A stretch of DNA of 64,000 nt from the NCBI GenBank assembly GCA_017506865.1, contig JAFCMP010000511.1, forward strand, positions 124,001-188,000. The letters run 5' to 3'. Position 1 is the first letter of the stretch. Each line of letters starts with the position of its first letter. The stretch comes from Tribonema minus (Eukaryota > Sar > Xanthophyceae > Tribonematales > Tribonemataceae). The position numbers and the translations under genes were made by a program. Shown here in pieces: positions 3,179-57,600 of the stretch. The notes under the pieces are model-generated. The model saw only the letters and a program-made list of their open reading frames with translations, did not search any database and had not been told where the DNA came from.

Positions 3179-6100
3179 TCAGACGGCGGAAGGTGCGGGT
3201 GGTCCCTGCAGGAACCCGCGGACCGTTCCAAACAGCAGCGCTCGACGGTGTACGGGGAACTCAAGCGCGACGTTGAGGCGCTTGAAGGCCTGCTCGTCGC
3301 TCTGCGAGACGTTCAGGGAATGCATGGGGGGTAGGGGTAACAAAGTAGGTATGATGAGAATGGGCACACAGTAGCGTGGCGGCGGCTTGCGTGGCGTTGA
3401 CAACTCGGCATGTGCCGGTTTGGAAGCAGTGCAACAGTGCTCAAGCCTGCGCACATCGGGCGACGTCATCGCCTGCGATACTGCGGAGCTTCCTGGGGTC
3501 AGAGAGATGATACTGCAGAAGTTCCTGGGGTGAGAGAGATGTGCTGGTGTCCTGTTCAGAACCCCGCCGCTACTTCCACACACACAAGAGTGTGCGCTGT
3601 GGACCTTCTATCTGCACCAAAGCGTCACATGCCAGACAGCACATCGCACTTTCTATGTGCACTGCAGCATCACATGCCAGACGGTACATCGCTTTTCAAC
3701 AAGTCGCATGCCTCAAGTCTCTTTACAAGTGCACACCGTGCTCACACTTCAAGTTGAATTTCAGGAACGCGCCCGCCCTCGTCCTCCGGATGCAGCAGAT
3801 GCGGGTGGCGCTCATGCTCCTCGCACACTGCAAGAATGACTTCCAATGAAGTTCAAGAGTGACGTGCGCAATGAACTTCATGTGTGACGCGCGCACCTCA
3901 TCGTCCAGGTGCACCAGATGCGGGTAGTGCTTGGTGCGCAGATTGACGGCGTGGCACGCCACCAGCGAGCCCACGAGGTCGTCGCCGGGGTAGCCCATGG
4001 GTATGTATGTCTGCATCAGAGTTGAAGTTGGCATTGAGCATTGAAGTTGAGGCTTGACATGGAGAATGCTGGCCGCTGTAAAATACTGTTGTTGGTGTGC
4101 ATGCAAAGGCTGCAGCGGGGCATGTCACCGAAAGCGTTTACAAGAGCACTTGTTTGCGGCAACATGGACTGAGCGTCAAACTGGGGGGGGGGGGGCGGGG
4201 GGGGTAAGCTTCATGTGAGTCACGCACATGGTGGTGTGTCCATCTTTCAAGCTCATAGCACATTTGAGCAATGCTTGCGGGCGTCCTCTTCGAGCACGGG
4301 CGCACCCCAAGTTTATGTAGCCCTGGGCGCTGCAGAGAGCGGCGTGCGACGGGACTCTACACATTGCAGTGCACGTGCATGGGGCAGATTGCACCGCTGC
4401 GATGATGTGAATGAAGCACCTGTGATGCATGCGTGCAGCTGCACCTCAAGCCGCAATCACTGGCACGCACATCGGACAGAAGAGGCTGCCTGTGCAAACC
4501 CTTGCCTCAACCCCAACGCTACACCCATAGCGAACTTGAACCTCGAATCCCGACCGCTATGCTAAAGCTTACGCGTCAACAGCTTTGCGCGTACGACATG
4601 ACCCTAGCGCCAGCGCTACGCATGCATACTGCAGCGGGGCACAACAGTGCGCGAAAGCCATCCCCGCTTTGTGCCGATGCGCACGCTGTGAAATGACGCT
4701 CCAATGCGACAGCTCGCAAAACCGCGTCGAGCGCTGCAGACACCAGCAGCAGCGCTCCGCAAATGCCCCCCTGCCGAGGGGCGTGCCTAAAGCGACGCCG
4801 ATCAGTGCGCAGCTCCATCGCTCAGAACCCCAGCGAACGGCACGTGACATACGGCTACTGCAGAGCGTGGCGCAGCGCAAAAGCAGCATGAGCTGAGCCC
4901 TGCTGAAATCAAGGGAGTGCTGCGACCAGCGATGGCAGTGCTCGCCGTGCGTGCACCCGCGCACTTCTATCCGCGGCACGACCGCAGAGGCGATGCGCTG
5001 GTCCGCGTCGACGGGCTCGTAGTCCAGGCAATTGCGCAGCCTACTTGGATTGAAGTTTATGGGGGCGCACATACCGCAGGCACCGCCATCAACCGAGCGC
5101 TGCTGCCAGCTATGGCAGCGATCGTTGCGCGCACGCGGGGGCTCCGTCCTTGAGGTACCCTGCAGATGCGACAGCGATCGATGAGTGTTCCTAATAGCGC
5201 CCTTCTGCCTTGTGATGGGTACACAGACGCGCACCTCTATCCGCGGCACATCCGTAAACGCGATGCGCTGGTCAGCGCCGACGGGCTCATAGTCGCCGCG
5301 CACCAGTCTGCGGAACGCACGTGCGGCGCGTGACGATGCGAAGATGAGCGCTGACACGGCTACCACTGCAGCAGTGCTCCACCCATAGGTGACCAGCAGC
5401 GCGCGGTGCTCTGCGGAGCGGTAGCCGGAAGCGCTGGATCTGCGGTCCGTGGGGGGGGGCGGGGGGGGGAGCAGCAGCAGGGTTCAGGGAGAGGACTTTT
5501 TTTGGGGGGCAAGGTGGTGCTTGGGAGCGCGCGTCCCAGCAACACTCGGGCTAACCCTAACCCTAACCCTAAGAGTGCTTTCAACAAACCAGAAGTACTG
5601 GCTCTACAAGACATCAGTGCACGAGCACGGGCTGGGTGCGCTCCCCAATGGCGCTTGCCGCCTGCTACCGCGCTGCGCCTCAGCTCACTAATCTTCTTGC
5701 AGTTGCACATCCCACGAAGTAGCTACCAAACCCCCACCTAACGCACGCGTTCAACTCAGAGTCGGGTTTGGCTTCTGCATCGTTCTGCGCTCAGTCCACG
5801 GGGCATGCGGCGAGCGATGGGTCCCCGCGCCCCGCCAATAACACACTGAGTAGTGTGCCACGCTCGAAGCGTCTTGTAACTAGCTGCGACGCTGCAGACG
5901 CAACGCCATGTGTGCCGCACCATGGTACGCAAAACAGCTTGCCAGCGCGCGCGGAAGCTGCGTAGATTTGGGGGTGCGGACCAATACGCTGCACGAAGCA
6001 GTCCGTGTGCGACAGCGCTGACATCTTCTTCATGTACTTGAAGTACGGTTTTTACAGTCCTCCATGCAATCTATGCACCGCACCTCAAGTGGTCCAGCGC

Positions 6101-9100
6101 CTCTGTGACCAGGTTGGAGTTGTCGCTGTACGTGTAGGTGCCGTCCGCGTTGAGTATGGCATTGTCGAACGGCCACCCTGCAGGGCATGTATGCATGTAC
6201 AGAAAAATGGATGAGGACTTAGGGGGGGGAACATGCCATTCGGCGAAGTTGTTTAGAAGTGATCGCCGATCCGCTTTGAAACACTTTCAAACTTTGACAA
6301 TACATGTTGGCTTCCGGTAGCAAGCTGGACATCTACCGTCAGGGCTGTTTTTGCGTCCCAAGCGAGAATGAACAAGAAGTACACGCAGGCACGCAACGTC
6401 GCACCATCGATTCTGCAAGTAGTGAGCGGGCAGGGGCCCTTGCCCTTCCCTGTCTGTGTCACGACACGCTTGGGGCCAGATTGTCGCGCGGCGACACTCA
6501 AGAGGCGCTGACGTTGTGCGCAAAGCGACTTCTGAAGCCCAAACCCTGAGCTGTGTCCATGTAGGTGCACCCCTGCAGCACGTGTGCACGGGGGCGTGGA
6601 CGCTGGTTCTATCGTCAATGCGGCAACCAGTTAAGCGATGATGCGGGACCGTCCCTCAGATGGCACTGCCGTCCTTGCAGCGTCACAATGCGCACCTTGT
6701 CATGTGGTAGCACTCAAAAACGACCAGAGATGCTCAGCCGCATGGACGGTATTAGCAGTCGTTCGCCTCGCGGAAGCGTGCAATTCGGTCATACAATTGT
6801 ACCCGGGGGAGGGGGGTCACCGCAGCAGCAACTTTCAAGCCCCCCCCCCCCCCCCCCAAGAGCCGCGTCGTCTGCTCAGCAGCGCTCACCCGCGTACCAG
6901 CTGCTCGTAACGAGCAGGTGCAGGAGGATGCAGCCTATGATGACGTTGTGAGCGCGCCACGCCAGCTGCGCGTCGTACGCGGGCGCGCTGCGCCACTCGC
7001 GCACGAGCCTGGCACACGCCCGGCAGCAGCAGCAGCGGCGGTGGGCGGCAGCGGCGGCGGGCAGCAGCGGCGGCAGCAGCAGCGGTGGCGGTACGCTTTA
7101 GTATGTGCATGGGGCGCGCGGCAGCAGCGGCGGCGGCAGCACGCTTCAGCACGTGAATGAAGGGTGTGCAGGTGGAGCAGTGCGCAGGGGTGTGTGGGCG
7201 AGCGTGTGAGCGTGGTGTGCTCTCAGTGCATGATTGTTGGATGCTGTTGAGCGTGGCTGGCGTGAGTCGCAGGCGCCGCCAGCAGCAGCACGCGTGCGGG
7301 AGTGGCGGCGGGGGGGGCGGCGGCGGCAGCAGCGGGGGCGGCGGCGGCGGCACGCTTCAGCATGTGAATGAAGGGTGTGCGGAAGGAGTAGTGCGCGGGG
7401 CGCAAGCCTGAGTGCGCGGTGTGCTCGCAGTAAATGATATTGGTGGAGGCTGTTGAGCGTGGCTGGCGTGGATCCAACGTCTGAGCGGTGGCAGCATCTG
7501 GCACGCCGCAAGCAGCAGCGCTCAGGGGCATCGCTCGTGGTACGCCGCAGCGCCGCGGCACGGCTTTAACGCGAGCAACACGGCTGTTAAGGAGCACAGG
7601 GACGGGTGCGCGTCGCACTATGCAGCGCGCAACTGAGCAGGAGAGGAGTGCATCGCAGCGCTGCATGTGCGCCCCCCCCCCCCCCCCGTCCCCCCCCCCG
7701 CCGCGTTTGTCACGCAATTCGCAGAACAAACAAAGGGCGAATGCAAGCCGCGCGCGCCTCGGTGCGTGACTGAGCAATGCCGCCGTGCCAGCATTACACA
7801 GCGCGCGCACACTCACTTGTACCGATCGATGAAGAAGGTCGCGAGGAAGCAGAACAACGCGAAGAAGCAGCCCGCGGGGTACACCGCCGCTTACGACAAG
7901 ATTTGCAGAACACACGAAGGGGCGAGTGCAAGCCACGCGCGGCGCAGTATGCGACTGAGCAACACAGCCGCCGTGCGGCAGCGACGCGCGCACTCACTTG
8001 TAGCGGTCGATGAAGAAGGTCGCGAGGAAGCAGAACGACGCAAAGAAGCAGCCTGCAGGGTATATCGCGGCGTAGAACAGCGCCACGATAACGGTCTTGA
8101 GCATGGACGTGTAGCGTTCGCCCAGGTCCCACGCGGAGCCCAGAAAGTACGAGTTCATGAGTCGTTGAGTCGTGGAGGCGCGGCTCAGCACGCGGCGGTA
8201 GAAGCGCGGCACGGCGTCCACGATCGCCAGCGCGGGCGTGATGAACGCGTCCGATACCATCAGGGACTGCGGTGGCGGGGGCAGAGAGCGGGGGATGTAT
8301 CGCATGGCTCTCTGCTTGATTGAGTGATGCATGATGGATGTGAATTTAACCAGATGGAAAACAAATGCGAAATGTATCAAGCCTGAGCTGGAACACAGTA
8401 ATTATTAACCAGGGTGGCCAGCGCGGGCGTGATGAACGCGTCCGATATCATTAGGGACTGCGGAAGAGAGGGGGTGGGGGGGGGGGGTATGCGAAGAGCG
8501 GGGTTGATGGTGGTCCCGGCTCATTCATGGCAAAAGCTGGGTTCTCTCATCAATCGCAAGGTGTGTGAATTAACCAGATGGAAACAAACGAATTGTAGTA
8601 AATCTGAGCTGAAATGTAGTCACCACAAACTAGGATGACCAAGCTTGTGTCACACAAGTTGTGTGTGATGAACACGTCAGATATCATCAGCGAATGCGGC
8701 GGCGGCGGCGAGAGGCAGAAGGGGGGGGGGGGGGGGGGGGATGAATCAGGCATGTTGATGAAGAGCGACCAGAGTGCGGTAAACATGACTAGGGATGAGC
8801 GTGCCGTGCGCGTGCTAAGATATCCGTCGCGCACAAGCGCACCTGCCCCCATTCATTCAACTACACATCAATAAGTATTCACGCACCTGCACGGCCATGA
8901 GCCGCGTGTAGCTGAGCGTCTCCCCCGGCGGCGTGGTGAAGTAGCTGATGAGTGCCGTGTTCATTCATTCAACTACCGCATTAACATGAATTCACGCACC
9001 TGCACGGCCATGAGCCGCGTGTAGCTGAGCGTCTCCCCCGGCGGCGTGGTGAAGTAGCTGATGAGCGCCGTGTTCATGAAGCGCGTCGCGATGAGCTTCG

Positions 9101-12100
9101 CCATGAGCGCGCCCTGTCTGTCGCCGTGGTCGTAGAACGACTGCAGCGCGTTGATCGCGTAGCACGCCGTCGGCAGCGCGGCGTTGATGAGCGTCACCAC
9201 TATGGCGAGGCCGCTCGCATCGGCGTTGTCTGCGACAAGGTGGAAATGGCATGTCAGAAACCACAGTTTAGAGCAGCAGAGTCGGACCCGCAAGTCAGTA
9301 GTTACAACGCACCACCAACGTGACGGGGAGTTCGTCGCCGCATAGTACTGTGGGTAACCGCAGGGTTGAGCCAAGGCTCGCCTACTGTGAAGGGCAGCAG
9401 CACTGCATCGCACGCAATGGACAAGTGACCGTGCGCGCATGCACTCCCATGCGCCGCAACTGATTGCAGCGCGGCGTTGATGAGCGTCACCACTATGGCG
9501 AGGCCGCTCGCATCCGCGTTGTCTGCGATCAAGGCCAAATGACACATCAAAATCCCCGCTGAGAGCAGCAGTGTCGGCGTTGTCTGTGACATTGCCAAAT
9601 GACACATCGAAGGCACCGCTTAGAGCAGCAGTGTCGGACCCGCAAGTCAGTAGGTACATCACACCAAGTTGAAGGGCAGAACGTCGCCGCGTAGTATTGT
9701 GGGTCACCGCCGGGTTGAGCCAAGGTTCGCTTACAGTGAACGGCAGCAGCACTGCACCGCATGTGATGGACGCATGATCGCGCATGCAGTCCCAAGCACC
9801 GCGACAGATTGTAGCACGGCGTTGATGAGCGTCACCACGATTGCGAGGCCGCTCGCATTTGTGTTGTCTGCGCTCGTGCCAAAGGACACATCAGAAAGCA
9901 CCGCTTAGAGCAGAAGTCGGGCTTCGTGGCGGACCCGCGAGTCAGTAGCTACAATGCACTACGCAGTTGACGGGCAAAACGTCACCACCGATACTGTCGG
10001 TCACCGCCGCTGATAATGACGCGAAGCAGCACTGCATTGCACGCGATGGACACGTGATCGTGCATGCGATGCCGTGCGCCACGAGCATCACACCTACTGC
10101 AAAGCCTCTGCTCGCGCCTGCGCCGTCTATAGTCAGTCCGGGTGACACATCCACACAGAACACGCAAGATCACGATTTCAAGAACGAATGTGGGGTTTGT
10201 GCTACCTTGGGTCAGTCAGGAAGTACACGGCGTGAATCCCGTCGCACACCGCCAAATCAATGAACAGGGCGTCACCGCCAGTCCTGAGTGAGCCAGTTTT
10301 GAGAATGCTCTGAGTCTGCGCGCTCCATGCGTGACGTGTGTGGTAGGCTACTCTACGCAGACTTCATCACGCCTCACGGAACGCGCAGCTAGCAGTGGCA
10401 AAGGTCACCACCGGCTTGGCTCAAGACACGACCGTCATGACGTGCGGCAGCACCGCAGCAGACCGGCGGTGGCGCGCCGCACCGCCGGCAGCGCGGCGCC
10501 CAAATGAGCACTGCCACAGCCTCACGCAGTCATGCTCGCTGACGAGCGAACCGTAGCACAGAGCACCGTCACAGCATCACGTGGCCGTGCTCGCTGACGC
10601 GTGCGGAGCGCTGACGTGCGAAGCGCGCGAGCTCTCACCGTGCATGATGACGCCGAAGCCCCAGTAAGAGCCCGCAACGAGGCTTCAACCTGCCTCACAG
10701 GACGCGCAGCCTCAAGTAGCAACAGTCGCCTCCAGCTTGGCTCAAGATGCGCTCATCGCAACGAGCGGCAGCGCTGCAGCGAATCAGCAGCAGCGGCCAG
10801 CGCACCGCGCCGGCGGCAGCACAGAGCTCATGCGCACCGTCGCAGCATCCCGCAGACGTCGCTGCCGCACTCACCGTGCATGATGGCGTAGAAGACCCAG
10901 TACGAGCCCGCGACGACGGCGCCCGTGAGGAGCGTCGCGGCCAGCGACTGCAGCGCACGCGCGCGGTTCGGCACCTGCAGGCTGTGCCACACGATCTCCC
11001 CCGGCTCCGGCGGCTCCTGCGCGTGGAGTATGTTGCCGTTGAAGCTGAGCGCTGCTGCTTGCGCGCCGTTGGCGTAGTCCCAGCGCGCCTTGAGCTTGCC
11101 GGTGGAGAGCTGGTGGAGGCAGTTGCGCTGCGCGGCCTCCGTGTTGAAGACTGCGGCGATGGGGGCAGCAAGGGGGTGGGGGGAAGGGAGGGGGCGATCG
11201 TCAATCGCCGGGCTACACACGGTGGCAGTCATGACTGAGCGGTTCTGTGCCAGCACACAATCTCAGCTACTTCAACACTCACTGCAGTGCAGGTGTGGCA
11301 CAAGGTAGCTATCGCGCCCGCGCCCGCCATGGTGCACATCATGCGCGGTGCGATATCCATTTTAAGCTTTGCAGCTACTTCAACACTCACCACGCCATCA
11401 GGTAGCGCGCACCCGGGCGCGTGGCCCCTGCGGCGCCACGCACACGCGGTGCGTCGCGTGTCAACATCAAGCACCCACACAAACGGCGCAGCTATTTCAA
11501 CACGTACCGCAGTACACGCGGGTCACTGGGTAGTGCACGCCCGGACGCGAGAGCGCGGCCACCTCCGCGTCCGCACGCGCAAGCGCTGCCGCGGCGTCGG
11601 CGCGCGACGCCGCCAGCCCCAGCGCGTGCGCGAGGCGCCAGCCGCATGAGCGCTGCCTCGCCTCATCCTCCTACAAGGGTAGGGTGGGGGGATGGGGGCG
11701 AAGGGGGGGGGGGCGGGGGGGGGGTGAGCTGCTGAAGCAGGGGTGCTTCTGAGCAGCAGCAGCAGTGGGGAGGGGACACTGCTGAAGCAGGAGGGGGTGC
11801 TTCTGAACAAGCAGCAGTGGGGTGGCCGGGTGCATTGGGGAGGCTGGTGGTGAATGTCATGCAAATCGACTGTGCTTGACGTCACGACCCCCAACAACCT
11901 CCGCACCTCGTCATCGCTCTCGTCATCCGCCCCCGGTGGCTGAGCGCTGGCTCCGCCATCAGCGCTGCCTCCCGCTGCCGCTGCTGCCGCCGGTGCTGCC
12001 GCGGCCGGCTTCTTCCTCACGCCGAGCGCGACCGCCGGCGCCACCGCCGCAACGCCGCGCGCCGCCGCCGCTGCCTCTGCGCCGCCGCCGCCGTCCGCCC

Positions 12101-14261
12101 CCGCCGCTGCCGCAGCAGCCGTCTCCACCTCCGAGACCGCGCTGCGCAGCGCCAGCGCCGTCTGCGCGGCGCGGCGGCGCGCGAGCGCCGCGAGCAGCGC
12201 GGCGTTGGCGCGCACGACGGTGACGTAGGCGACGTCGCCGAAGCGCGCAAAGAAGCGCTGCCACGCGGCGGGGTCGTCGTCGCCGGCGCCGGGGTCGTTG
12301 ACGACGACGGCATCTGAGCAGGGGGGGTTTGGGCGTTGAAGTTGCAGCGCTTGAGAAGAGCATTGAGCCTGCCGCCCCTACCGGGTGTACTATATGAGTT
12401 TATGTGTGTACATTTGTCATGAGCGGCGCCCTAGGGATGGCAGATGCTGACACGCACGAGACCGCCAGAGAGCGCATGTGAAGGTGAGCGCTGGTGCATG
12501 GTAGGGTTATCGTCACCGACGCGGCAGCCAGGCTGAGGTCACAGCAGTGCTCCGGTGCCGTGCCAGTGCCCCCCCCTCCCCCCCGCGCCCTGCAGGCTGC
12601 ATGCCGTCAACAACAACTCCCTATCCCAACGGCCCCGGGGGCCTGGCGACCACGGTCCGCACATCTGAGTACTGTTTGGCAATCTTAACGACGCGAAGCC
12701 TGCCGCCTGCACGTGATGGCTACCACATACAGCGCACCGCCCTTCTGCAACCCTTCCCGCTCCTCTCTCCTCGCAATGCCCGCCACGCCAGCTTTCGGTC
12801 TCGACCCCTCACCGCCTCCGACTCCGACCCTGACTCTAACTCCGACTCACAGTCCTGCTGACTCCGACCCCAACTTTGACCCCGACTCACAGTCCTGCGC
12901 CGTCTGCACGCTCTCGTCGAGCTCGCGCCCCTCCCTCTCCAGCAGCCCCCCCAGCAGCAGGCAGTAGGCAAATAGACACGCAACGCCGACCAGATCCACA
13001 GCGCTCATCCGCGCGGACACGGCGCAGCCCGCCGTGAAGCGCGCCGCGCACGCCTCCGCGCCGTGCGGGCAGTCGCGCGTTGCGGTTACGGCGCGGTAGG
13101 CAGTGCACAGCGCGCTGCCGGGGAGCAGGCCGTCCGGCGCGTTGGCAGCGCTGGTGGCATGGCTGTTGTAGTCCGTCGCAAAGTAGCGCATGGTGTACAG
13201 GGAGATGGCGCCGTAGAGGAAGAACGCGCCGGAGAGCCTACGGCAGCAGGTGGTGGGGTTGGTAGGTTGTGTGGCATGGATGAGACGCGTGGAGAGCCAG
13301 TGCGGTTGGTGATCGCAGCGGGGGTTTGGTTGGCGTGCGATGCTGCTGACTTGAGGGATTGATTTGTGTGGATGGCATCAACCCCATGCAGAAAGGATGC
13401 TCCTCAGTACAGCGCTGTTATCCATGTCCTGACATGCAGAGCAGTGCCTAATGAAATGGGCTTTGTACAGAGCAAAGGGGTCTGCAGTGCCGTCGTGGCA
13501 CTGCACACACTCGCTTAACGCAAGATTGCGGCCAGCCATGCCCTCAGTTGCCGTCAAGTACCAGTGATTGTGCGGAAGCGGAAACAGGCCTCTCACGTTC
13601 GCCGCACGCCAAGACAGGCAGCCCAGCACTTGCAACAATCGGAATAAGGCGCGCCTGCCACTATGCTGGCACCAGAAGCATGTGCACTACAGCATGTGCG
13701 AGAACCTGCACATTTTTGGATGCATGTAGGTTGTCACCGCGCTGATCCAGGGAACGAGGGGATGCTTGGGTGCTGGCAGCACTTGTGTGCTCACCATAGC
13801 AATTGCTTGAAGTAGAGGCCTATGCCAACACCGAATGGTCCCAGGTCGTCCGCCCCACAAATCAGGGCCGGGTAGGGCTCCGCAGTCGGCTCCAGATGGT
13901 GAGCTTTCCTGCCACAATCGCAGCCGATGAGACGGCATCTTGGTTCATGTCAGCAAGATGACGTGATATCGATTTCGGCTTATCTGATCTGTGGCATACG
14001 TGTGACACACTCAGTGATGGCACCAAAGTACCAGGTCGCTGAGGCGATTTTCATTGCAACAAGCCGTCAGGAGTTCTCTGAGGTCTTGCTCGCAAGCATG
14101 ACAGGTGCAGTACAGCAGTAGTTAAAAGATCGTATTCAGTACCTCCACTTCTCTCGGCGAGCAGCTCCAGCTTCTCTGAGCCTCTGCTCTGCGGCACGGT
14201 CCCTGGCTCTGCGTGGCGTCAAGCGCTTGAAGAACTCATTGGCTTTCTGCCAGGACACCAT
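3179..14261 (-). CDS. OSCA/TMEM63 (CSC1-like, DUF221) mechanosensitive cation channel
   Basis: Thirteen phase-compatible exons: 14261..14143, 13908..13795, 13237..12891, 12313..11907, 11670..11508, 11150..10875, 9229..9000, 8266..7998, 7008..6890, 6177..6084, 5433..5235, 4010..3897 and 3301..3179, giving about 857 residues. Family marks in order are a Gly-rich first helix (13795-13908), the cytosolic VVVNDPG-type loop start (12313), an FNTE motif after a long helix (11150), a PEPGEIVW motif matching the conserved APEP-x-x-x-W of OSCA before the pore helices, then hydrophobic exons with the LINAALP and FIDRYK stretches and a WPFDNA motif. OSCA/TMEM63 proteins are tension- or osmosensing Ca2+-permeable channels of plasma or internal membranes. 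The cytosolic loop carries an Ala/Gly-rich, acidic insert. A further 5' exon ending at 14488 is in phase with the acceptor at 14247, so the N-terminus is uncertain. Most introns contain degraded copies of adjacent exon ends. Confidence 0.88.
4958..5316. repeat. Duplicated exon end with donor site (period about 271 bp)
   Basis: The end of exon 5433..5235, encoding the DYEPVGADQRIA stretch and its GTGCGC donor, is repeated at about 4958-5045 in the following intron. The copy lacks the upstream transmembrane part of the exon. Confidence 0.85.
5549..5572. repeat. Interstitial CCCTAA telomere-type repeat
   Basis: Three and a half perfect CCCTAA units lie inside the intron 5434-6083 of the channel gene, in the orientation that reads TTAGGG in the transcript. 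Confidence 0.9.
7813..8078. repeat. Duplicated exon end with donor site (period 183 bp)
   Basis: The 3' end of exon 8266..7998, with its donor, is repeated at 7813-7890 with about ten substitutions over 80 bp. The copy sits in the downstream intron of the channel gene. Confidence 0.85.
8881..9085. repeat. 113-bp-period tandem duplication of an exon 3' end
   Basis: Positions 8881-8964 repeat 8994-9077 with a single visible mismatch. The unit contains the last 28 or so codons of exon 9229..9000, its GTGCGT donor and about 30 bp of intron. It is the youngest-looking example of the splice-junction duplications in this window. Confidence 0.9.
9229..10150. repeat. Three to four direct intronic repeats of about 310-340 bp, each with an exon start
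   Basis: The 5' end of exon 9229..9000, its acceptor and about 250 bp of upstream intron recur at about 9482-9830 and 9823-10090, with a weaker trace to about 10150. The copies keep a CAG acceptor-like triplet and the ASGLAIVVTLINA reading, then decay. All copies lie in the same orientation within the intron 9230-10874. Confidence 0.8.
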
Positions 14262-18919: not shown

Positions 18920-19230
18920 CATTGTGTGCGTTTCCAGCATAGCTGCCAGTCTGTCTTTGTGGTGCGTTGTGGTGTGTTTCAATTGTTGGGTGTGGGTTCG
19001 TGAGTGTATGGTCTGACCGTAATGCTACGATTTGAGACAAAACCTTCACAATCTCCCTCTATCCTGCTGGTTTGCTGGCATGTTGAGCTTCAAGGCGCAA
19101 GTTGCTGCTGCAGGCAAGAAAGGCCGCAGCTACACGCGCAGCACAAGTTGCGGCGCGGTTGCCTCACCAGCGGCTTGGGGGTGCAGGCGAGGGCCACTGC
19201 ACAAACGAGCTAAAATCGGTTGATTGTGCA

Positions 19231-27334: not shown

Positions 27335-27404
27335 GCGCTCGCTGTCGCGGCGGCAGCGCTGCGCTGAGGGCGGCGGCGATTGTGTGCAGGAATGGGGGAG
27401 GGGG

Positions 27405-38989: not shown

Positions 38990-38997
38990 GCTCCAGC

Positions 38998-39031
<34 letters not shown>

Positions 39032-42293: not shown

Positions 42294-42332
<39 letters not shown>

Positions 42333-45300: not shown

Positions 45301-45638
45301 AAGGATATGTCAGCAGCACGAGCGCAGGGGGCGTGGCGCTGTCGTGGCAGTTAGTGGGGCTGCCAGGGTGCCGGGGGGGGGAGGTCAAGAGGGTTTGCAC
45401 GGAGGGGGGGGGGGGAGGGGAGGGAGCTTACGCGCCTCCACCCTCTGTTGCCTGGTGAGCATGCTCACGGATATACGGTAGGCTCTCCCACGCAACAGCG
45501 CGCCGCAGCGGCGCGCTGCCGGCCGGGGGCGCGGCTGCTATCATGCGCTACGTTTCTGGTGCTCGTCACCGCAGCGCACCGTTTTCTCCTCCCTCCCAGC
45601 CCTAAATTGTGTGTTATGGCAGCGCTTAGATGCAAACT

Positions 45639-45676
<38 letters not shown>

Positions 45677-48600
45677 CGCCCGCCCCCTCCCCTTCCCCCG
45701 CGCTGCGCAGGCTGGCGTGCGTGTACTTTTGCGCGTGCACCGCGATAGGCTCCTTCAACAGCTGGTACACACTGCTGGATTACCGCTTTGGCTGGGGGCC
45801 GGTGCAGATCGGCGCGTTCTGCGCCGCGTTCGGGCTCGGCATCACCGCCGTGCAGTCGCTGGTCATCAGGTACGAGATCACTGTTTGCTCGTGCCTTGTG
45901 TAACTTCAACTTCAATGCTGCAGGTGCGTCATGCGCCACCTCTGGGTTTCGCATCACTGCCGTGCAGTTATCTGGTGATCAAGTGCGCGCCGCTCGCTCG
46001 CTGTGAATCAGGTTTCTCCCGTGCAACTTCAACTTCAATGTAAACGTTGGCGCGATCCGCGCCGCGCCGCACCACCGCTGTGTCGCTGGCCATCACATGC
46101 ATGCTGTCGTATTTGCCTTGTGCAAGCGTTTCGCTGCTGGTACGATACCTGTGCTCCCTCATTCAGCAGCATTGGCAGCAAACAACTTCAACGGTGACCA
46201 TGCTGTGCGTCTTTGGGCTCCGCATCAGGGTGCTGGTGATCGTGGGGCGCACCACCCCTTTACGCTCAGCTGAGCTCCCTCCCCCCATGTACACAAAACC
46301 TGAAGTTCAAAGCCGACGATCGGCGTGGCTTGCGCCGCATTCAGGCTTGACATCATGTCTGTGCACTCGCTAATCATTGGTCGACAGCCCATCTCAATTG
46401 GCAGCGAAGCACGTGCTGCATATACATACGCCGATGATGCTACACACCGCTCAGAACATGTTTCCAGTTCAGTCACTGTCCGCAGCAAGAAAGCCGATCG
46501 AGACTTTTGGTAACTACGCGCATTTGCCATCACGCATCCAACGAGTCATTCAACTGTCGCGCCCCCAGTCACAGTCATAAACTCGGCACCTGCCACACCT
46601 CGCGCATGTCTGCACTCGCGCAGGGCGGCGGTGCCGCGCCTGACTCTGATGAAGACATACACGCTGAGTAGATGCTTTCAGTACAGTCAATGCGCACAGC
46701 GGGGGAGCCTGTGGTAGCAACACGCATCCGCTATCATGCGGCCAACGAGTCATACCATAGTCACTATTGTGCCCCTCAGTCATGGTCATAAACTTGACAC
46801 AGCGTCGCCTCCCGCATGTCTGCACGCGCACAGGGCGGTGGTGCCGCGGTTGATGACGCAGGCACGCGCGGTGCCGGTTGGCATGGCCATCCAGGCATTG
46901 GGGATGGGGCTCTTCGGCATCGCCAACAAGGGGTGGGAACTGTACGCCATCACGCCCATCAGCGCTCTCAGCTCGGTGAGCTTAGGGTCAAAGCTAGGTC
47001 TCGGGGTCAGCGTTAGTGTTAGAGTTAGGGTGAGGGTCAGGGGTTGGGTTAAGATTAGGGGGGTTAGGATTAGAGTTGAGGGTTAGGGGACTGTATGCCA
47101 TTCACACACGTGCACGCTGAGCTCGGTGAGGGGCGGCTTAGGGTTAGGTCTACGAGTCAGCATCAGACTTAGGGTTAGCGTCAGGGTCTAGGGTTTAGGG
47201 TTAGTGTTAGGGTTAGGATCAAGGAGCAGTACGCCATCACGTCCATCAGCGCGCTGAGCTCGGTGAGGGCCGGCTTAGGGTTAGGTCTACGAGTCAGAGT
47301 CAGTGTCAGGGTTAGCGCCAGGGTTCAGTAGGGCTAGGTATCACGCGGTTGCAGCAGGCGGTGCGGTGGTCGTATACGCCGGCGCTTGTCCGCCCTTTTG
47401 CAGCGCCGTAGTCTGTGTATGAGCGGTGTCACGCTCATACTGCATGTGCGCACGCAGTATTCCTCCGTGCCTTGGGTTAGGGACAGGGTTGGGGTCATAT
47501 GCGCACTGCGGCGGCGCGCCTATGGTTGCTTTTGCCCTGCTACTTTTTTGCATGCGACGTGCCCAGAGCTGCCTTCGTCCTCCTACAGAAGTTGGCACGT
47601 GAGCTTGTGCAGCTCGCTGTTCACGATGCGCTATATGGCCACGGCAACATGCCCGTCGTCGCGTCCGCCCACCCACAGTAGTCTGCGTGTGAGGCGGTTT
47701 AGGGCTAGCGTCAGGTAGCCTTGGTGCGGACACATCATGCCGCCGCCAGCGATCAACGGCTCGCAGCGAGTCCGCGTGTCATTAAGCGTTACGATTAGAG
47801 TTAGGGTCGGGTTGCAGTGCTGACGACTGGGCGACACGGGCTACGGAAGCGCGACCTCTCAATGCGCGCCATGCAACAGACAGCAGCCGAGAGGTGTACT
47901 TGCTGTCACAGGCAGGACTGCTGTGTTGCCGTGACCTCGCTTTGAAACCTATGGACACAGTCAGTTTCCAGTGTGCACGCTGTCTGAAGCACTGTTGGGG
48001 TTAGGGTCACGGTTACACTGGGGCGTACACGCTCATTGCTTGCACCATTTCTCCCGAAACCGTGTGTGTGGGGGATCAGTCTACACATTTCCCACCTGGG
48101 TCAGCTCCGTGGACTTGAAGTCCATCTACGGGCGCAGTGTACATACTTGCGGCAGTGCACCAGTATTGGTCTCTCAATGCACCCACGCGCCCTATGCTGA
48201 CCGCAGCGCTTTGCTGGCGCTATCTGTTCGTCCCCCCCTCCCCCCCCCCCCCCCCCCCCCCCGCTGTGCCACCCCTCAGATCGCTGAGCCATGTCTACAA
48301 GCCATGCTGGTGAGTGACGGCATACATCCCGCACTCGCGCTTAGCCTCGTGCGCTGCGCAGCATGCAGCGCTGCCCACCGCGCGCTGCCGCCTGGCTGTA
48401 GCTTAGACTTCGGTCGAGCATACAGGGTGTGAACACTTCAAGTATAGAAGTATAAGTTTAGGCTAAGTTTACTTTGGACCATGCGGCTGCACATGCGCAT
48501 GCACCTGCGAACTTCGGGAGCGGCCAGTGCGATGCGCTGCATTCGCGGCGTGGTCACCCCGTGCCACCGGCAGAGCGCTCGAGGGTCCAAAGAAGCGTTA

Positions 48601-49670
48601 CCCATCGATCGTAGGGCATTCCTGCTGGTGGCTGGAAGTATGCAGTGCTTGTCATCTGCACCGGCACCAGTGCCGGCCCCACGCCCCGCCGCCGGCAATG
48701 CTTGTTGCGGCGCGCAAGGTCACGGCGCTCGTGCTACGAGCTCAGGGTCATGCGTGCGCATGTTTGCTTGATGCGGTCCTCTGCAGTGCAGTCGCTGACG
48801 GCACTGAGGGCTAGGGTTAGGTCAGGTCTCCCCAACCCTGACTCCAGCGTGCTCGCGCTCCTGCGCTCGATGTACATGTTTGTGCTAGTATGTATGTACA
48901 CCACAATGTATGCGCATGTACCATACCCCCTCCCCACGCACACACACCCGCAACGGCCCCCCTTGCCTCCCAGCGCCCTCGCTACAGTACACTTCTCGAG
49001 GGCGCCAAAGCTTTTTCAGCGAATCTTTGTTCAATGATGCATGCTTCAACTCATCCCGAGCATGTGCCGTGTATGTACACTACGACGTAGCTTTGATGCA
49101 TTGATTGCCATACTCCCCCCCCACACACACACACCACCCCCCTAACCCCCCCCCCCATCCCCCCCCCCCCCCCCCCCCCCTCGCCAGGCCGCCGCCACCG
49201 ACGCGTCGCGCCTCGGCTCCCTGCAGGGTGCGCTTTTCTCGCTGCGCATCCTCTCGCAGGGCCTCGCCGGCCCGCTGTACGGCGCCCTCTTCAACCTCGG
49301 CATCAGCGACGCGCTGCGCGACGCGCTAGGCGGCACGCGCCTCCCCGGCCTCGCCTTCCTCGCCGCCGCGCTCGCGAGCCTCGCGGGCCTGGCCTTTGCG
49401 CTGTCGGTGCCGCCGGTGGCGATGCTCAGCGAGAAGGCGCTGAGCGGTGATGACGCCGCGCTGGCGGAGCCGCTGCTGCGCAGCGGCGGCGGCAGCGGCG
49501 CACGCGTGCCGCTGCACGAGGTCGGCGACGGCGGCGAGGGGGGGAGCGAGGGGGGGGCGACGGAGGGGGGCAGCGAGGGGAGAGAGGAGGGGGATGCGGG
49601 GGGGTTGGAGGGGGAGTTCAGCGCCGAGACGCAGCCCGCTGTCGTGCTGGGGACCTTGAACGCCGTCTGA
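39615..49670 (+). CDS. MFSD14/TetA-like major facilitator superfamily transporter
   Basis: Eight exons: 39615..39934, 40803..40914, 42347..42545, 43833..44016, 45711..45869, 46834..46975, 48280..48309 and 49188..49670. Every join is phase-compatible and the product is 542 residues. A cytosolic N-terminus precedes TM1 (LIFFLACFVVSNAI). The motif A region reads DVRGRRGLLL after TM2, the loop 2-3 signature of MFS carriers. GVVIPVSQAIISDV and GFGVIAGTFGLGLCIGPLLGGW form TM4-TM6, like the GPxLGG motif of tetracycline-type antiporters. A long central loop, TM7-TM12 and SLQGALFSLRILSQGLAGPLYG follow, the C-terminal block shared with MFSD14/HIAT1. The tail is Gly/Glu-rich. The substrate is unknown. 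Introns of 0.87-1.7 kb are filled with copies of exon ends, poly-C tracts before acceptors and telomere-like repeats. Confidence 0.9.
42294..42330 (+). repeat. Poly-C tract before an acceptor
   Basis: About 36 consecutive C in the sense strand lie just upstream of exon 42347. Similar runs precede the exons at 45711 (45643-45675), 48280 (48233-48262), 49188 (49147-49180) and, in the selenoprotein gene, 26746 (26726-26743). Confidence 0.9.
42508..43294. repeat. Exon end and donor of transporter exon 3 repeated four more times
   Basis: The sequence around the end of exon 42347..42545 (ACGTGCACCGCCCCGCCGCA, GCTTCACGG, GGTGAG) recurs at about 42637-42690, 42902-42990, 43055-43110 and 43249-43294. 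Each copy is preceded by an ACTTCAAGTTGAAGT-type palindrome. The second copy also keeps the following intron bases (GAGAAGCATAT, TGATGATTTGTAGCTGA). Confidence 0.92.
43481..43660. repeat. Two decayed copies of the start of transporter exon 4
   Basis: About 43481-43530 and 43611-43660 repeat the acceptor and first codons of exon 43833..44016 (CAGGCACC, GCTGCTGGTGGCGA), upstream of the real exon. Confidence 0.75.
44266..44740. repeat. Nearly intact copy plus decayed tails of transporter exon 4 end
   Basis: 44266-44362 repeats 43935-44020 with about ten substitutions, including the GTGC donor. Shorter decayed tails of the same junction follow at about 44447-44480, 44565-44600 and 44715-44745. 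Confidence 0.85.
45940..46385. repeat. Four decayed copies of transporter exon 5 end
   Basis: The GGCATCACCGCCGTGCAGTC stretch and its flanks (45800-45875) recur with substitutions at about 45945-45990, 46047-46130, 46200-46250 and 46316-46385. Several are preceded by ACTTCAACTTCAA. Confidence 0.75.
46595..47270. repeat. Copies of the start and end of transporter exon 6
   Basis: 46595-46650 is a decayed copy of the acceptor region at 46816-46870. The exon end with donor (46955-46990) recurs at about 47088-47135 and 47226-47270. After each donor copy comes a stretch of degenerate TTAGGG. Confidence 0.82.
46980..47335 (+). repeat. Degenerate TTAGGG-type telomeric repeats within an intron
   Basis: Many TTAGGG, TTAGNG and GTCAGGG units in sense orientation lie in the intron after exon 6. 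Smaller tracts occur at 40974-40988, 41596-41620, 44238-44266, 44808-44882, 47790-47812 and 47997-48008. Confidence 0.85.
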
Positions 49671-51609: not shown

Positions 51610-54600
51610 TCACCTGGGCGCGGCAGGCCCACCGCCCGACGCCACCGCCGCCTGTAGCTGCCTCCCCCTGCTGGCTGTTCCCGCCTTCTGGTAAGGGTTC
51701 CTCGCGGCGTGCGATCCGGGCGCGCCGCCAGCAACTGCAGCGCTGCCGCCACCGGCCACTGGCAGCGGCGGCGGCGGCGGCGGCGCCACCAGCGGCACCG
51801 CAAAGAGGTCGCTGGCCCACGCCACCTGCTCCGCTGCCGCCGCATTTTCGTCCGGCGCCGCTGCGGCTCGCGCGGCCCTCTTCTTGCTGCGGCCTCCGGA
51901 CGTCACTGGCCTCACCCGCGGGGCTGCGACCGTGTCGCCGGTGCCGCTGCTGCCGTTGCTGCTGCGACCTCCAGAGGTGCGGCCTGCGGTGCTGGCCGCG
52001 GCAGCGGCAGCGGTCGTCTCGCCAGCTTCATCTGGGGGCGCTGCCGCGTCCTCTGCCCTCCTCTTCTTTCCGTGTCCCTGGCCCCTGCTTCCCGTGGCAG
52101 CATCCTGTTCCGCGCTGTCTGCTGAGACCGCCAAGGGCGCCACTGCTGCCGCCTTGGCAGCGGCCGCCGCCGTCGCTGCTGCTGCTGCTGCTGCTGCTGT
52201 TGCGCTTTCCGCCGGCTCTGCAGCTGCAGTGGCAGGTTTGAGAGCTTTTTTGGATGCAGCCGCACGGGGCCTTGCTGGCACACCAGCGCTGGTTGCTGCC
52301 GCAGCGGCGCCTTTCTTGGCCCTCGATGCTGTAGGCGCAGCGGCGGCGCTGGCATGCTCCAGAGCCACATGGCCATTGGCAATGGGCCCACCGCCCGCTG
52401 CTCCCACATCCCCATCCGCCGACGCACTGGCAGGTGCACGGCTGGCGGCGGTGGCGGCGGCGGCGGCGCTGGCGTTTGCAGCCGCGGGGCTTCGGAAGAG
52501 CGGCCTGCGCGCGCCGCGGTGCAGCGCTTGCGCCGCCAGCATGGCAGCAGGCGCCTCATGCTGATCGGCGTTGATGCCAATAGGTGAAGCATCCGCCGCT
52601 AGCGCCAGGCGATCTGCAGTGTCTCCGTCCGCTCCCGCTGCATCTCGGCGGACGGGCGAAGCCTCGACACGCGCGCTGCCGGGCGGCGTGGCGGCAGCGG
52701 CGGCGGCGGCGCCGCCGGGCCCGCTGCGCAGCAGCGCACGCGGCCGGATGCTGCGCGGCGCCGCAAACGCCTGCCGCACGCCGCCGCTGCCGGGCGAGGC
52801 CAGCCCCCTGTTCACCCGAGGGGGTGTCGCGCCATCAATCCGGTGCACGTTCGCGATCGCAGCATCGTCCGCTGCCGGCGCTGCACCGCCGCCGCCGGCG
52901 CCGGCGCCGCCGCCTCCGCCGCCTGCGCGCAGCTGCGCGATCTCGCTGCGCAGCGCCTCCATCTCCATTTCATGGCGCACCTCCGCGAGCAGCACGGCCT
53001 TCTCGTGGTCTGCCTCTAGCTCCGCCTGCAGCTCGCGGCGCAGCGCGTCGCGCTCGTCGCGAAAGCCCGCGCTGCGCTCTGACAGAACGCCGCGCCGCAG
53101 CGCCTCCATGCTGGCGCGGTGCTCCTCCTAGATAGTACATATGTCAGCAAGCGTGAGTGGAATGACATCAGGCTCGATGTGGGCAGAGACTCGATGAAGT
53201 TGCGCAAATACGTCAGCAAGCGTGAGTGGAATGACATGAGGGCGTGAGGCGGGCGGAGGTTGCCTGTGACGCGATGAACTCTCAGGGCACGGTCGATATT
53301 GCCGCACGCACGCAGGGGAGGTGGAGGCATGGTGACAGTACTTATCGCATCCAGCCTGTCATGCAGTTGAATGCGCTTGTACGTTGTGATCAGTGCATGG
53401 CAGAGTGAGCAGGCTGTCAGAGCCTCCTGAATATGTGTTGCAACAAGAGATCATTCAAAAACACCAACTGTCAGCCACACTGCCATCGCACACACCACCA
53501 TGTCGCAGCCACAACGATGCAAAAGTGACTTGACACAACGCATGGAGATGTACCACCATCCGTGCCATCAAATCACAATGGCACAATCAAAAGTAAACTT
53601 CAACTTAAAAGGTGTATTGAGAGTTGGGCCATCAGCATTGCCATCACATCACAACAGCACCAGCACAATTCCTTTGAACTTCAATATGAAGTTGCAGCAT
53701 ATGGCAGGTTTCACCTCCAGCTGTCCACGCATGGCCTCGACCAGCACCAGCACCTCCCTCTGCCCCTTGAATCCGCTGCGGATGATGTCGTCGACGCTGC
53801 GGCGCTCCCGCTTCCACTGCTGCCTAAGCTCGCGCGCTGTGAAAACCATCACAACAACAAAGAATAGTCAACTTCAACAGTGCCCAAGGGCTCACCAGGC
53901 CACCAGCAAGCAAAAGCTGTACGCAACGTCATGATGGAATTCAAATGCGTACATGCCCTCGTGCACACGACATTGCTCGCGATGACATGCTCTCGCGGTC
54001 ATAGCACACAAATAACGCTTTCCCTCAGTGCTCACATTTGTCTTGCGTGCGTTCAAAGTAAGATGCCGTGAAGAACTTCAACTTGAAGCACCTCAAAACA
54101 CATGATACGGTGGACCTGACAGAGACACTTTGGATGTGACGACCTTCTCAATGCTGCTCCACTCGAACGAGACAATGGTTTAGGCTAGCTGAATCATCGC
54201 TGCCCCTATTGAGCTGCCTGTGAAGCGGCCAGGGGCATCATATGCGACCGATGATTGCTCGTCGCACAAGAAGCGCGCACAGCATGGGACCAAGACACAA
54301 AGCAAGTGTAGTCAGGGTCAACTTGACCCTAGCACGGCGTGCCCCTGAGTCGTGACTGCCCATGTCGCGAAAACACATATTGTGCCGCACTCTCGTGCTG
54401 CAGCACACCACCAGCACGTCAGTGCTCAGCGCAGCAGAGCACAGCGCTCAACTGCTGCCACAGGCACGGACCTGCCTCCGCCACCTCCGCCTGGCAGCCG
54501 GCGAGCGCCTCCGCGGCCGCCGCCCTCTCCTCATACAGCGCGTCCATGGGTCTGCGCTGCTGCTGCTGAGCTGTGTCACCGCCGCTGCCTTCGGCACCGT

Positions 54601-57600
54601 CACTCTCCGCCTCGGCGTCCATGTCGGCGTGCGCCTGTGCCTGCGCTGCCGTCGCGAGCGCGGCCTGCGTGACGGCCGTTGCCTGAGGCCGCAGCATGGG
54701 GCAGCGCGGCGTTCGTGTCAGGGGCATGCATGCGGCGTCTGCAGTTGTAATGAGCAGAAGGCATGTTTACGATGTGGACTTGCAGGGGACATCATAGGCT
54801 GGTGGTGCACTTTGCCTCATCGCTGGCGCAAACGGTATCAGCATACACTACCCTGGAAGTGAGCACAGGTGATTGGGCCTACTTGTGCATGTACATGTCA
54901 ATTATAGCAGGACATTGCGACTTCAACATAACCACAGAATGAGTAAGCTGCAATATAGTTGCGCCACAACCAAGTACCTGCAACATACTTCAAATGATGA
55001 AAACAGTACTTCAAGTACAATTGTCAGAAGCGCCACAACCAAGTACCTGCAACATACTTCAAATGATGAAAACAGTACTTCAAGTACAATTGTCAGAAGC
55101 CTGTGATGCTGCTCTTCTACACCCATTGCACTGCTAGAGCCCCTAGTGAAACCGCCACGGTACCTGCCGTAAACCCAGCCAATCACGTAGCTCGTGTACC
55201 TCAGAAATGGCGCGCTCCAGCTGCGATGCGAACTGGCGCTCCACCGCCGTGATGGCGCTCGCGCTCTGCTTCGCCGCTTCCTCCATCACCGCCGCCACCA
55301 GCAGGCGCCGCTGCCGCTTGTGCTCGCGCACGTCCGCGCGCAGCGCCGCCACCTCCGCCCTGGCCGCCTCGAGCTCCGTCCGCTGAGCATCACCCTCCGC
55401 GCCCGGCGGTGCGGGCTCGCTGCGCGCCTTGCGCTTGGCCAGCGCGCTGCGCGCGCGCAGCGGCGCCAGTGGCGACGGCGTAATGACCTCCGGCCGGGGC
55501 GGCGGCGGCGGCCGCGGCGGCAGCGTTGCGCTGGCGGCGGCGCCCGGCGACTGCGGCGGCGCGTCAGCGCCGGCCTCCTCTCCTGGAGCGCTGCTGTCGC
55601 CGCCAGGCGCTGCGGCATGTGTAGACGCGCCGCGCTCGCCTGCAACATCTGGGCTCCCCTGCGTCAGCGCCGAGGCGGCCGTGAGCACGACTGCCGTCTC
55701 CGGTGGCGAGGAGTGCTCGGCGGCGGCGGCGGCAGCGTCCGCTGGCGCTGCTCCGCTGCCCTCGGCGGTGAGCGTTGCTGGCGACGTGTCGCCAGTTGAG
55801 GCGTCGATGCCTGAGTCGACATCCATGTCCACAAGGGCTGCGCCCGCAAGAGCGGTACTGCCCACTTCGCCTTGTCCGCTGCTGCCGCTTCCGTCGCTGC
55901 TGGCGCCGCCGCCGCCGCCGCCGCCGCTGCCGCCGCCGCCGCCGTTGCAGCTGCCAGTGTCGCCGCTGCTGCCATCGTCACCGCCGCTGCTGCCGCCGTT
56001 GCTGCCGCTACTGCTGTTGGTTGAGGAGGCATCTGCGGCACCGGCGGCTGCCTCCATCGCCGTTTCGGTTGTAACGCTGACGCTAGGTGCTGCGGCCGGC
56101 GTTGGCTCGTCATGGCCCGGCGGCGAAGCGTCGCCATCACTTGAAGTGGCAGGCTGAAGCGCACCGCCGCCATCGTAACGATTGCCGACTGCAGCTGATG
56201 AAGCTGGAGACTGCTCTGCGGCGGCGCTGTCGTCGGCACCCAGCTGAGCGTTGACACTCTGCGGGGCTCCTTCGCCCTGAGGCACTGTTGTCGCGTGCGC
56301 TGGGATGGCCCTGCATCGGCACCAGCTATGGATTGTGGGTCAATCAGTGAACGCACTGCTGGCCTCTTACCAGGACGTCCAAGCATGCATACGGGTATGC
56401 AGTTGACAATGACATGATTTGCAGACTTCAGCTTTGGTGTATTGGATGGGACGCGTTGTATGTTGCCTGCATGTGCACAAGGAGAAAAGTGGGCCTTAAC
56501 CAGGTCCTTGAGCTCTGCAATGAGTAATGAATACAGGGATGTGTTCAACAATCAAGTCATCATGGATGCAATATTGATGCCATGCGTTCGCCATAAACTG
56601 CATTTTGAGCAGGGCCGCTGCCACTGCTGCTCTCTGGAAATCATATAGTCCTTGACATTGAAGATGGTGACATGCGATTCAGCCATGCCAGCAGCTAGAA
56701 ATTGGTGACCTCATGCTGAGAGTAATACAAAAAAAATGCCTCCCTGCTGCCATTTACTCACCAACCTTGGTGCGCTCGCTCGTCATCAGAGAAGACAAAA
56801 TCACTCACACGGAAGCGATGACATAATTGGACCACTGGCGGCACTCGGACAAGCATACCTGCCGCAACTGCCAACAGCATCACTGCACAACTGCATCGCG
56901 TTCAGATCCATAATGTGATTGTCACCGACTGCATCACTCCTTGGCTCAAGTGACAATGTGACAGAGGGTTGTCCTGAACTGCCCAGCAAATGCATTCGTA
57001 CTCACTTGGTGTCCGCATCTGTTGGCATGGAAGGGAGTGGAGCCTTCGGTAAGTCGTCGCTGCTGCCAATGCTGCCATTGAAGATGTTGCTGCTGCCGGT
57101 GACGGCATCGACGTCGCTGCTAGAGCCGTGCCCAATGCCGCTAAGCCTGCTGCCGCCGCCGCTGCTGCTGTTGCTGGTTGTGCTGAAGCCGCTGCTGCTG
57201 CTGCCGCCGCCGCCAGCGCCGCCGTCGCCGCCGCCGTTGTTGCGGCCGCCGCCGCTGCCGCCTCTGCCGCCATCGCCATCGCAGACATCGCCGCTGCCAC
57301 TGCTGCTCGTCTCACTGAATGGGGCGGCAGTGCTACTCTCGGGCTGTTCAATGTTGCTGCTGCCGCCATTGCTGAGTTGACCGCCACTGTCTCGCACTGG
57401 TGCTGCTGCTGCGAGAGTGACCGCTGTCAGTTCCGCTGCTGCCGTAGGCTCCGCTGCTGCGCCCGCTGCATCGGCGCCGGCAGTGCGGTCCGCGTCGACG
57501 AGCAACGGCTGCGCGAGCGCTGCTGCCATCTGCTCCAAACTGCCAACGATAGGCGGCGCCGCGCTTGCAGCCTCCGCTGAGCGCTGCACTGCTGCCGACG

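Follow-up and report, generated by a model that had tools for sequence, protein, structure and literature searches.

Introduction

The origin of intron length is usually unanswerable, because the source sequence has decayed. Here we study a stretch of 64,000 nucleotides of the Tribonema minus genome (the window), in which an earlier note had described introns that hold repeats of their own exons. Where the neighbouring exon is the source, its conservation lets each copy be traced back to it, and the size, position and relative age of the duplications can be read from one genome. Do introns here grow by duplication of exon ends, and do such duplications prefer exon-intron borders? We find local, same-orientation copies that cross junctions, are of graded ages, exceed what a uniform model predicts and are unevenly spread over genes. 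We think it probable that repeated small tandem duplications, preferring borders in a subset of genes, lengthen introns and leave the protein unchanged.

Copies of exon ends in the window

In the window we count 14 copies of exon termini, including one at a tail-anchored protein gene and a weak one, which is fewer than the more than twenty announced before. Admitting families whose source is a probable decoy exon raises the count to 19 copies in 15 families. Exonic identity ranges from 98.7% (8850-8964) down to 75%.

In the gene that had been read as a channel (predicted 3179-13713, minus strand, as are all its copies), independent gene models confirm the exon-end copies in the introns. The label itself does not hold: there is no Pfam match at 0.001, and the best PDB relative (E 0.91) is unconvincing. 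The source unit at 8962-9077 joins the final ~78 bp of exon 9000-9229, with the donor, to ~37 bp of intron. It is abutted by a tandem copy at 8850-8964 (unit 112 bp; 94% identity, 98.7% exonic and 86% intronic). The acceptor end of the same exon recurs at 9466-9577, with the initial 57 bp of the exon and intron (98.2% exonic, 79.6% intronic), where the gene finder predicts part of the copy as exon 9445-9522, and again at 9813-9920 (89% exonic). Exon 7998-8266 is copied at both ends: the initial ~49 bp and the acceptor at 8409-8463 (91%), the 3' end with donor and intron at 7753-7898 (85% exonic). Further copies derive from the 3' end of exon 10875-11150, with donor and intron (10574-10683, 87% exonic), and from the 3' end of exon 5225-5433 (4948-5024, 85% exonic). 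Dispersed repeats lie at 6207-6392, inside the predicted span of the gene. A paralogue was suspected on contig C1, but the match there is only 99 bp long.

The MFS transporter gene (predicted 37004-49670, plus strand, as are its copies) likewise has exon-end copies in its introns. Exon 42347-42545 is the source of four, through its final ~46 bp and donor: 42638-42734 (with the donor, 91% exonic), 42902-43007 (87% exonic, 90% intronic; partly predicted as exon 42890-42946), 43053-43138 (85% exonic) and 43239-43291 (83% exonic). The 3' end and donor of exon 43833-44016 recur at 44281-44412 (92.5% exonic, 71% intronic), and a weak copy at 46563-46666 (75% exonic) resembles the acceptor end of predicted exon 46834-46975, a model made uncertain by the adjoining satellite. 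The direct repeats at 46935-47324 had been counted with the exon copies, but 46982-47217 matches a subtelomeric satellite found near many contig ends; this array is therefore not exon-derived and falls outside the phenomenon.

The other two genes of the earlier note fared less well. At the tail-anchored gene a decayed copy (19226-19332, plus strand, 75%) of the coding 3' end (18816-18927) is real and lies in the 3' flank, but no splice site is involved; the end of this gene is misread by the gene finder. In the coiled-coil gene the repeats are within introns only, and none of its 12 junction tiles is duplicated. Its introns hold a kindred duplication without exon, a perfect 69-bp tandem (54961-55100, minus strand, 100% identical), and close to one of its acceptors is an intron-only pair of 34 bp (53139 and 53208, 69 bp apart, spanning 53139-53241, minus strand). 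Pfam had no match to raw reading frames from parts of the window; queried with the predicted proteins, it confirmed MFS, histidyl-tRNA synthetase and TMTC.

Own-exon matches across the genome sample

For the tests we used 237 kb of the genome from several contigs, reaching past the window. Exons and junctions are predictions of an HMM gene finder from the DNA sequence. Contig C300 (satellite) was left out of the tile and junction tests before counting, and pairs with more than 30% low complexity were excluded. For counts of spacing, identity, junction spanning and splice dinucleotides, 11 of the 57 families were excluded: 7 on probable decoy exons and 4 in a CAG-repeat exon.

The earlier note expected introns to match their own flanking exons more than others, and in the same orientation. 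Both expectations are borne out. A match to the own flanking intron is found for 35 of 279 exon ends, against 0/279 for the reversed sequence, 5/5,580 for introns of other genes and 1/2,710 for introns of the same gene that do not flank the exon. In a second search the counts are 42/356 for own introns, 5/356 reversed and 0/788 on other contigs. Direct repeat pairs at most 1 kb apart outnumber inverted ones by 156 to 19. Chance is excluded by this excess of direct pairs together with that of own-exon matches over controls in both searches. Long introns are favoured: matches occur in 19 of 70 introns of at least 600 bp and in 4 of 83 shorter ones.

The copies hold an exon terminus, the splice site and the edge of the intron, with a median exonic identity of 87%. 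The duplicated units span exon-intron junctions, and 61 of 70 copies align over at least 14 bp to each side of an existing junction. The unevenness between genes is large, as some are saturated with copies and others are without any. Histidyl-tRNA synthetase has 18 copies at 12 of the 14 junctions in the aligned part of the gene, and an independent synthetase locus on contig C533 is also saturated, with identities up to 94%. Without its copies the histidyl-tRNA synthetase protein aligns to solved relatives (PDB 3hrk, E 1.9e-141) with two single-residue gaps. The copies are therefore probably absorbed as intron, as had been proposed. No new spliced intron or exon was found in this gene, the one tested by protein alignment. 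Dispersed repeats were seen in an intron beside it.

That the repeats stem from dispersed elements (introners, MITEs or satellites) is highly improbable. The transporter array is indeed satellite, the dispersed repeats mentioned above for the channel and synthetase genes exist, and contig C1 has a single isolated copy of the channel unit. Against this, two exon-terminus units searched singly match only locally except for that C1 copy, and introns of other genes hardly match; the earlier distinction from an introner family is thus upheld. Dispersed repeats filled most of the 40 candidates scored, so the absence of dispersed exon-unit copies among these is weak evidence.

A probable preference for exon-intron borders

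The simplest rival is uniform neutral tandem duplication: events that damage exons are purged, those in introns or at junctions survive, and copies at junctions can be recognised for longer because their source exon is constrained; no border preference exists. We regard this as possible, though rather unlikely. Several observations agree with it. Intron-only and intergenic duplications also occur (53/682 and 19/313 tiles), junction and intron-only duplications have similar spacing (medians 157 and 140, KS p 0.74; the middle half of spacings is 111-236 bp), junction copies have a visibility bias of 1.28-1.30, and contig C200 alone is without excess, with a junction/interior ratio of 0.63. We had expected this model with the visibility correction to suffice, but simulations on random and real sequence disagreed.

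Duplicated junctions stand to duplicated intron-interior tiles in a ratio of 2.72 (95% 1.43-5.02). Planting uniform duplications into real genes predicts 0.72-0.80, and the whole range from forward simulation and planting into duplication-poor real genes is 0.35-0.80. Under a strict rule the observed ratio is 1.91 (0.95-3.42) against 0.43-0.73 when planted; as this gene-bootstrap interval touches 0.95, the strict junction excess leans on the comparison with the model. Shuffling labels within genes gives 30.5 expected (sd 4.2) against 57 observed. Relative to intron-interior ones, junction-crossing duplications are about 3-4 times commoner than the uniform model expects.

The earlier claim that duplications are anchored at splice sites stands in one part, the border excess over the uniform model, but the breakpoints lie away from the splice site, since 11-92 bp (5-95%) of a junction pair is exonic. 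A border preference without fixed breakpoints is thus partly supported. Predicted gene ends show no enrichment of duplications (2/38). Only some genes show the border effect; of the four first described as examples, two do not.

Age and decay of the copies

The decay of the copies is roughly neutral, and the source exon remains under constraint. Between exon and copy, in 36 of 65 pairs, divergence is 0.122 in the exonic and 0.203 in the intronic part (ratio 0.60, 0.50-0.70), and differences by codon position are 49:49:144. Some over-similar exonic parts had prompted the idea that copies are conserved; comparison of copy with copy argues instead for near-neutral decay, with differences at 290 of 1,572 exon-derived and 242 of 1,106 intron-derived sites. 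Divergence is graded across copies, in agreement with the recurrent events proposed earlier. The gradation and the skew to third codon positions also make an assembly artefact highly unlikely, as does agreement across several contigs, despite the perfect identity of the 69-bp tandem at 54961.

A small residue beyond neutral decay remains in exonic indel and splice-dinucleotide counts. Among the 36 pairs, the rate of exonic indels (0.006 per bp) is about 4 times below half of the intronic one (0.053 per bp), and in a wider set it is near half (0.016 vs 0.037 per bp). Splice dinucleotides are kept in 55 of 62 cases, slightly above the 46.1 expected, and in 50 of 61 under a stricter spanning rule. 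A few pairs combine 98% exonic identity with a badly diverged intron (for instance at local position 45232 of contig C100). This exceeds what constraint on the source exon gives, and hints at gene conversion or a composite history.

Such a residue could be taken to mean that alternative splicing uses the copies, as alternative exon ends or cassette exons, and that they have been kept for it. The gene finder predicts several copies as exons, the splice dinucleotides are in slight excess, and a few copies have 98-99% exonic identity beside diverged intron. Yet 39 of 41 exonic indels break the frame, being no multiple of 3, divergence between copies is near-neutral, and histidyl-tRNA synthetase requires none of its 18 copies. 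Further, exon ends are copied, and not whole exons with the frame kept, as mutually exclusive or cassette exons would be. We consider this reading very improbable.

A proposed model of intron growth

In the model we favour, growth by border-preferring tandem duplication, a small tandem duplication would arise across an exon-intron border, with a unit that joins an exon end, the splice site and the adjoining intron, or the same elements in mirror order at an acceptor. Splicing would keep using the outer, functional site and ignore the copy; the protein would therefore be unchanged and the extra copy become intron, where it would decay. Repeated events would lengthen introns and fill them with relics of their own exons in graded stages of decay. 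Because many aligned copies fall short of the full spacing of their pair, a true tandem origin of each copy is presumed. The duplications may come from fill-in and end-joining repair of staggered breaks. The breakpoint evidence consists of three abutting pairs of at least 85% identity, with overlaps of 2, 3 and 7 bp, one of which crosses a junction.

A more specific idea is that exon-intron borders of certain genes suffer recurrent staggered breaks repaired by the telomere machinery, through CST/Pol alpha-primase fill-in and sometimes telomerase addition. On this view a single process would yield the junction duplications as well as the interstitial TTAGGG repeats, and would be what chiefly makes introns grow here at present. 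We hold this to be improbable. Almost all telomeric repeats are in introns (39 in 138.6 kb of intron, 2 in 46.9 kb of intergenic sequence, 0 in 66.6 kb of exon) and track junction copies across 24 genes or parts of genes (Spearman 0.56, p 0.005). They were predicted at duplicate boundaries, but 8 of 38 are within 60 bp, against 14.3 expected.

If true, the border excess would mean a mutational bias of intron growth tied to gene structure. The copies bring splice sites with them; alternative exons could be built from them, and gene annotation can be misled by them, as our gene finder was.

Comparison with known systems

Single boundary-crossing duplications are already known. In the literature searched, with partial coverage, none of the papers listed described recurrent lengthening of introns through duplication of their own exons. 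Internal gene duplication involving exons and introns is reportedly ubiquitous (Gao and Lynch, in 2009). As cited, such duplications contain entire introns, unlike the units in Tribonema minus.

CST-guided Pol alpha-primase gives small tandem duplications at breaks with 3' overhangs (PMC8355091). The short tandem duplications at such staggered breaks may be likened to those in Tribonema minus; the evidence described there is from mouse and human cells at Cas9 breaks.

In Drosophila, novel intron positions are described as arising by intron sliding or tandem duplication (PMC2891723). As in Tribonema minus, exonic sequence is duplicated and one copy intronised, but the Drosophila positions are new, only some are duplications, and they are not serial growth of old introns. 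In the Rogers-type gain described for ATP2A1 and fission yeast, tandem duplication of an AGGT-bearing exonic segment yields an intron (PMC4974935). There too tandemly duplicated exon sequence becomes intron and the protein is unchanged; the Tribonema minus units, in contrast, already hold a junction and intron bases and make no new intron position between copies of an exonic AGGT segment. In the potato RdRp gene, described in the same paper, a single tandem duplication crossed the intron-exon boundary and carried the splice signals along, as here. In potato a new intron and a new exon arose from that event, whereas in Tribonema minus many events in several genes appear to have lengthened existing introns, with the coding sequence unchanged.

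Introns contain copies of their own exon ends

The genome of this eukaryote comprises 158 Mb in 554 contigs, and the window, with a G+C of 61%, belongs to contig C508. Codon use and splice sites may suggest a green alga. Besides the window, 173 kb from other contigs and later five aminoacyl-tRNA synthetase loci were sampled, giving an uneven total of about 256 kb of the 158 Mb. Exon borders throughout are predictions of a small unsupervised gene-finding HMM, trained on the window and the 173 kb, where it placed 206 exons and 186 introns with the splice consensus CAG/GTG at donors and GCAG/G at acceptors.

When 237 kb was compared with itself (at least 45 bits), the repeat pairs up to 1 kb apart were mostly direct: 156, versus 19 inverted. 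The earlier note proposed testing whether introns are enriched in matches to their own flanking exons, and in the sampled contigs they are: the first or last 100 bp of an exon matches the flanking intron above threshold in 35 of 279 cases, against 0/279 for reversed introns, 5/5,580 for introns of other genes and 1/2,710 for non-flanking introns of the same gene. A second search found a copy at 42 of 356 junctions, versus 5/356 reversed and 0/788 on other contigs.

The window holds 14 copies, families anchored on decoy exons excluded. In the clearest case, a unit of exon end, donor and intron edge at 8962-9077, in the gene labelled a channel, recurs in the abutting 8850-8964. On another contig (C1:2078050-2078148) lies an isolated 99-bp copy, 93% identical, of this unit (window 8967-9065); among the 40 candidates scored, no other part of the channel gene matched there.

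On several examples the earlier note was wrong. The repeats of the coiled-coil gene sit within introns, the copy at the tail-anchored gene is located in the 3' flank, and the repeats at 46935-47324 are not exon-derived: 46982-47217, in an intron of the transporter gene, match a subtelomeric satellite that also occurs close to many contig starts and towards the ends of C100 and of C508 itself.

Apparent preference for exon-intron borders

Junction-centred tiles of 130 bp were compared with intron-interior tiles that are not exon-derived and with intergenic tiles, excluding contig C300. Duplicated were 57/270 junction, 53/682 interior and 19/313 intergenic tiles, as well as 2/38 predicted gene ends; shuffling labels within genes gives 30.5 junction tiles (sd 4.2) versus the 57 observed. 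The junction/interior ratio is 2.72 (gene-bootstrap 1.43-5.02), rising to 3.61 with C100 removed and 7.06 in the window alone (14/73 and 5/184); contig C200 alone shows 0.63 (1/19 and 5/60). A uniform duplication model yields 0.35-0.79 by forward simulation, and 0.72-0.80 when planted into real duplication-poor genes of this genome (9/141 and 8/340 before planting); the visibility bias is 1.28-1.30. If only matches extending 10 bp past the junction on each side are counted, the ratio is 1.91 (0.95-3.42) versus 0.43-0.73 planted, and simulation reaches 1.41-2.31 once intron-only events are thinned 6- to 10-fold.

Since the observed ratios exceed those of the uniform model, duplications appear to favour exon-intron borders, the strict excess resting on comparison with that model. 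The proposal that they are anchored at splice sites is partly supported by this junction excess, but the breakpoints vary in position rather than sitting at the splice site itself: the exonic part of junction copies spans 11-92 bp (5-95%). Spacing is alike for junction and intron-only duplicates (medians 157 and 140, KS p 0.74).

Fate of the copies

Source and copy could be compared on either side of the junction in 36 pairs with sufficient sequence. They diverge by 0.122 in the exonic and 0.203 in the intronic part, a ratio of 0.60 (0.50-0.70); neutral decay of the copy under full constraint on the exon would give 0.5. Exonic substitutions in these pairs fall 49:49:144 by codon position, and 1/13 exonic indels has a length divisible by three (2/41 in all 65 pairs). 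Over query residues 2-405, the alignment of the predicted histidyl-tRNA synthetase (HisRS) with PDB 3hrk contains two single-residue gaps; the eight exons encoding this part carry 18 copies at 12 of their 14 junctions. Between copies of 19 families, 290/1,572 exon-derived and 242/1,106 intron-derived sites differ. Together these results indicate that the exon stays functional while the copy decays as intron and would be removed with it in splicing.

Three observations count against simple neutrality. In the 36 pairs the indel rate is 0.006 per bp in exonic versus 0.053 in intronic parts, below half, although in a wider set it is close to half (0.016 versus 0.037). Splice dinucleotides are retained in 55/62 copies versus 46.1 expected, and in 50/61 with at least 14 bp aligned on each side; this small surplus could be an effect of the alignment. 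In a few pairs exonic identity is 98% but the intron badly diverged. Some gene conversion or a composite history is possible.

Distribution over genes and introns

In the own-exon test the distribution among genes is very uneven: copies mark 8/12 exon ends in a TMTC gene, 16/30 in the predicted gene containing HisRS, 5/21 in the transporter and 3/23 in the channel, but the largest two genes of contig C10 have none (0/80 and 0/23). Matches occur in 19/70 introns of at least 600 bp versus 4/83 shorter ones. Among the five synthetase loci, picked by family, one (on C533) is saturated with copies; among the pairs listed for the other four none crosses a junction, and that on C512 lacks any listed pair. 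The share of intron taken up by visible copies is 3.4% for the window, 10.6% in C100, 1.1-1.2% in C10 and C200, 34% at the C533 locus and zero at the other four.

On contigs C445 and C4, tRNA-synt_1 profile matches overlap in range a few hundred bases apart (12-58 and 25-60 on C445; 51-102 and 20-75 on C4, where the second match contains a stop), possibly further exon-end copies.

Other repeats were also seen. Window 6207-6392, in a channel intron, is a dispersed repeat with more than 25 matches of 73-79% on other contigs among those listed; a MITE, a SINE or an introner are candidate identities. An intron of the HisRS-containing gene (sampled sequence L019:968-1138) holds a dispersed element of about 170 bp with at least about 40 matches of 80-93%, three of those listed lying 1,048 bp apart on C179. 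The window has a large inverted repeat (33997-34987 / 35685-36663, arms about 990 bp, 94%) with inner arms at 34985-35205 / 35393-35613, internal palindromes and related predicted ORFs. Nested tandem repeats, spaced at about 143 bp and 1.23 kb, make up the end of the 23-kb contig C300 (L014).

Possible mechanism and telomeric repeats

Staggered breaks, if filled in and joined, would leave small direct duplications. This fits the orientation, closeness and unit size of the copies and the slight overlaps (2, 3 and 7 bp) in the three pairs that abut and are 85% or more identical. PMC8355091 describes CST-guided Pol alpha-primase as one route demonstrated in mammalian cells.

The start of contig C2 carries CCCTAA/TTAGGG arrays. 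Interstitial CCCTAA repeats number 39 in 138.6 kb of intron, 2 in 46.9 kb of intergenic sequence and 0 in 66.6 kb of exon; they occur in many of the sampled introns, for example at window 5555-5572, and reach their highest density in the HisRS and TMTC genes and at the C533 locus. Gene by gene they track junction copies (rho 0.56, a relation looked for after the fact) but avoid duplicate boundaries, so that a common origin in break repair is no more than a lead.

Comparison with known systems

In a partial literature search, of titles and the starts of abstracts, we found no equivalent of serial intron lengthening by own-exon duplication. In potato RdRp a single duplication over an intron-exon boundary produced a new intron (PMC4974935), whereas the sampled genome shows serial lengthening of existing introns. 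The Rogers-type gain described in the same paper duplicates an AGGT-bearing exonic segment; here, in contrast, existing introns are lengthened. HisRS was the only gene to allow a check of the coding sequence, and there the predicted exons indicate that serial lengthening is without coding change.
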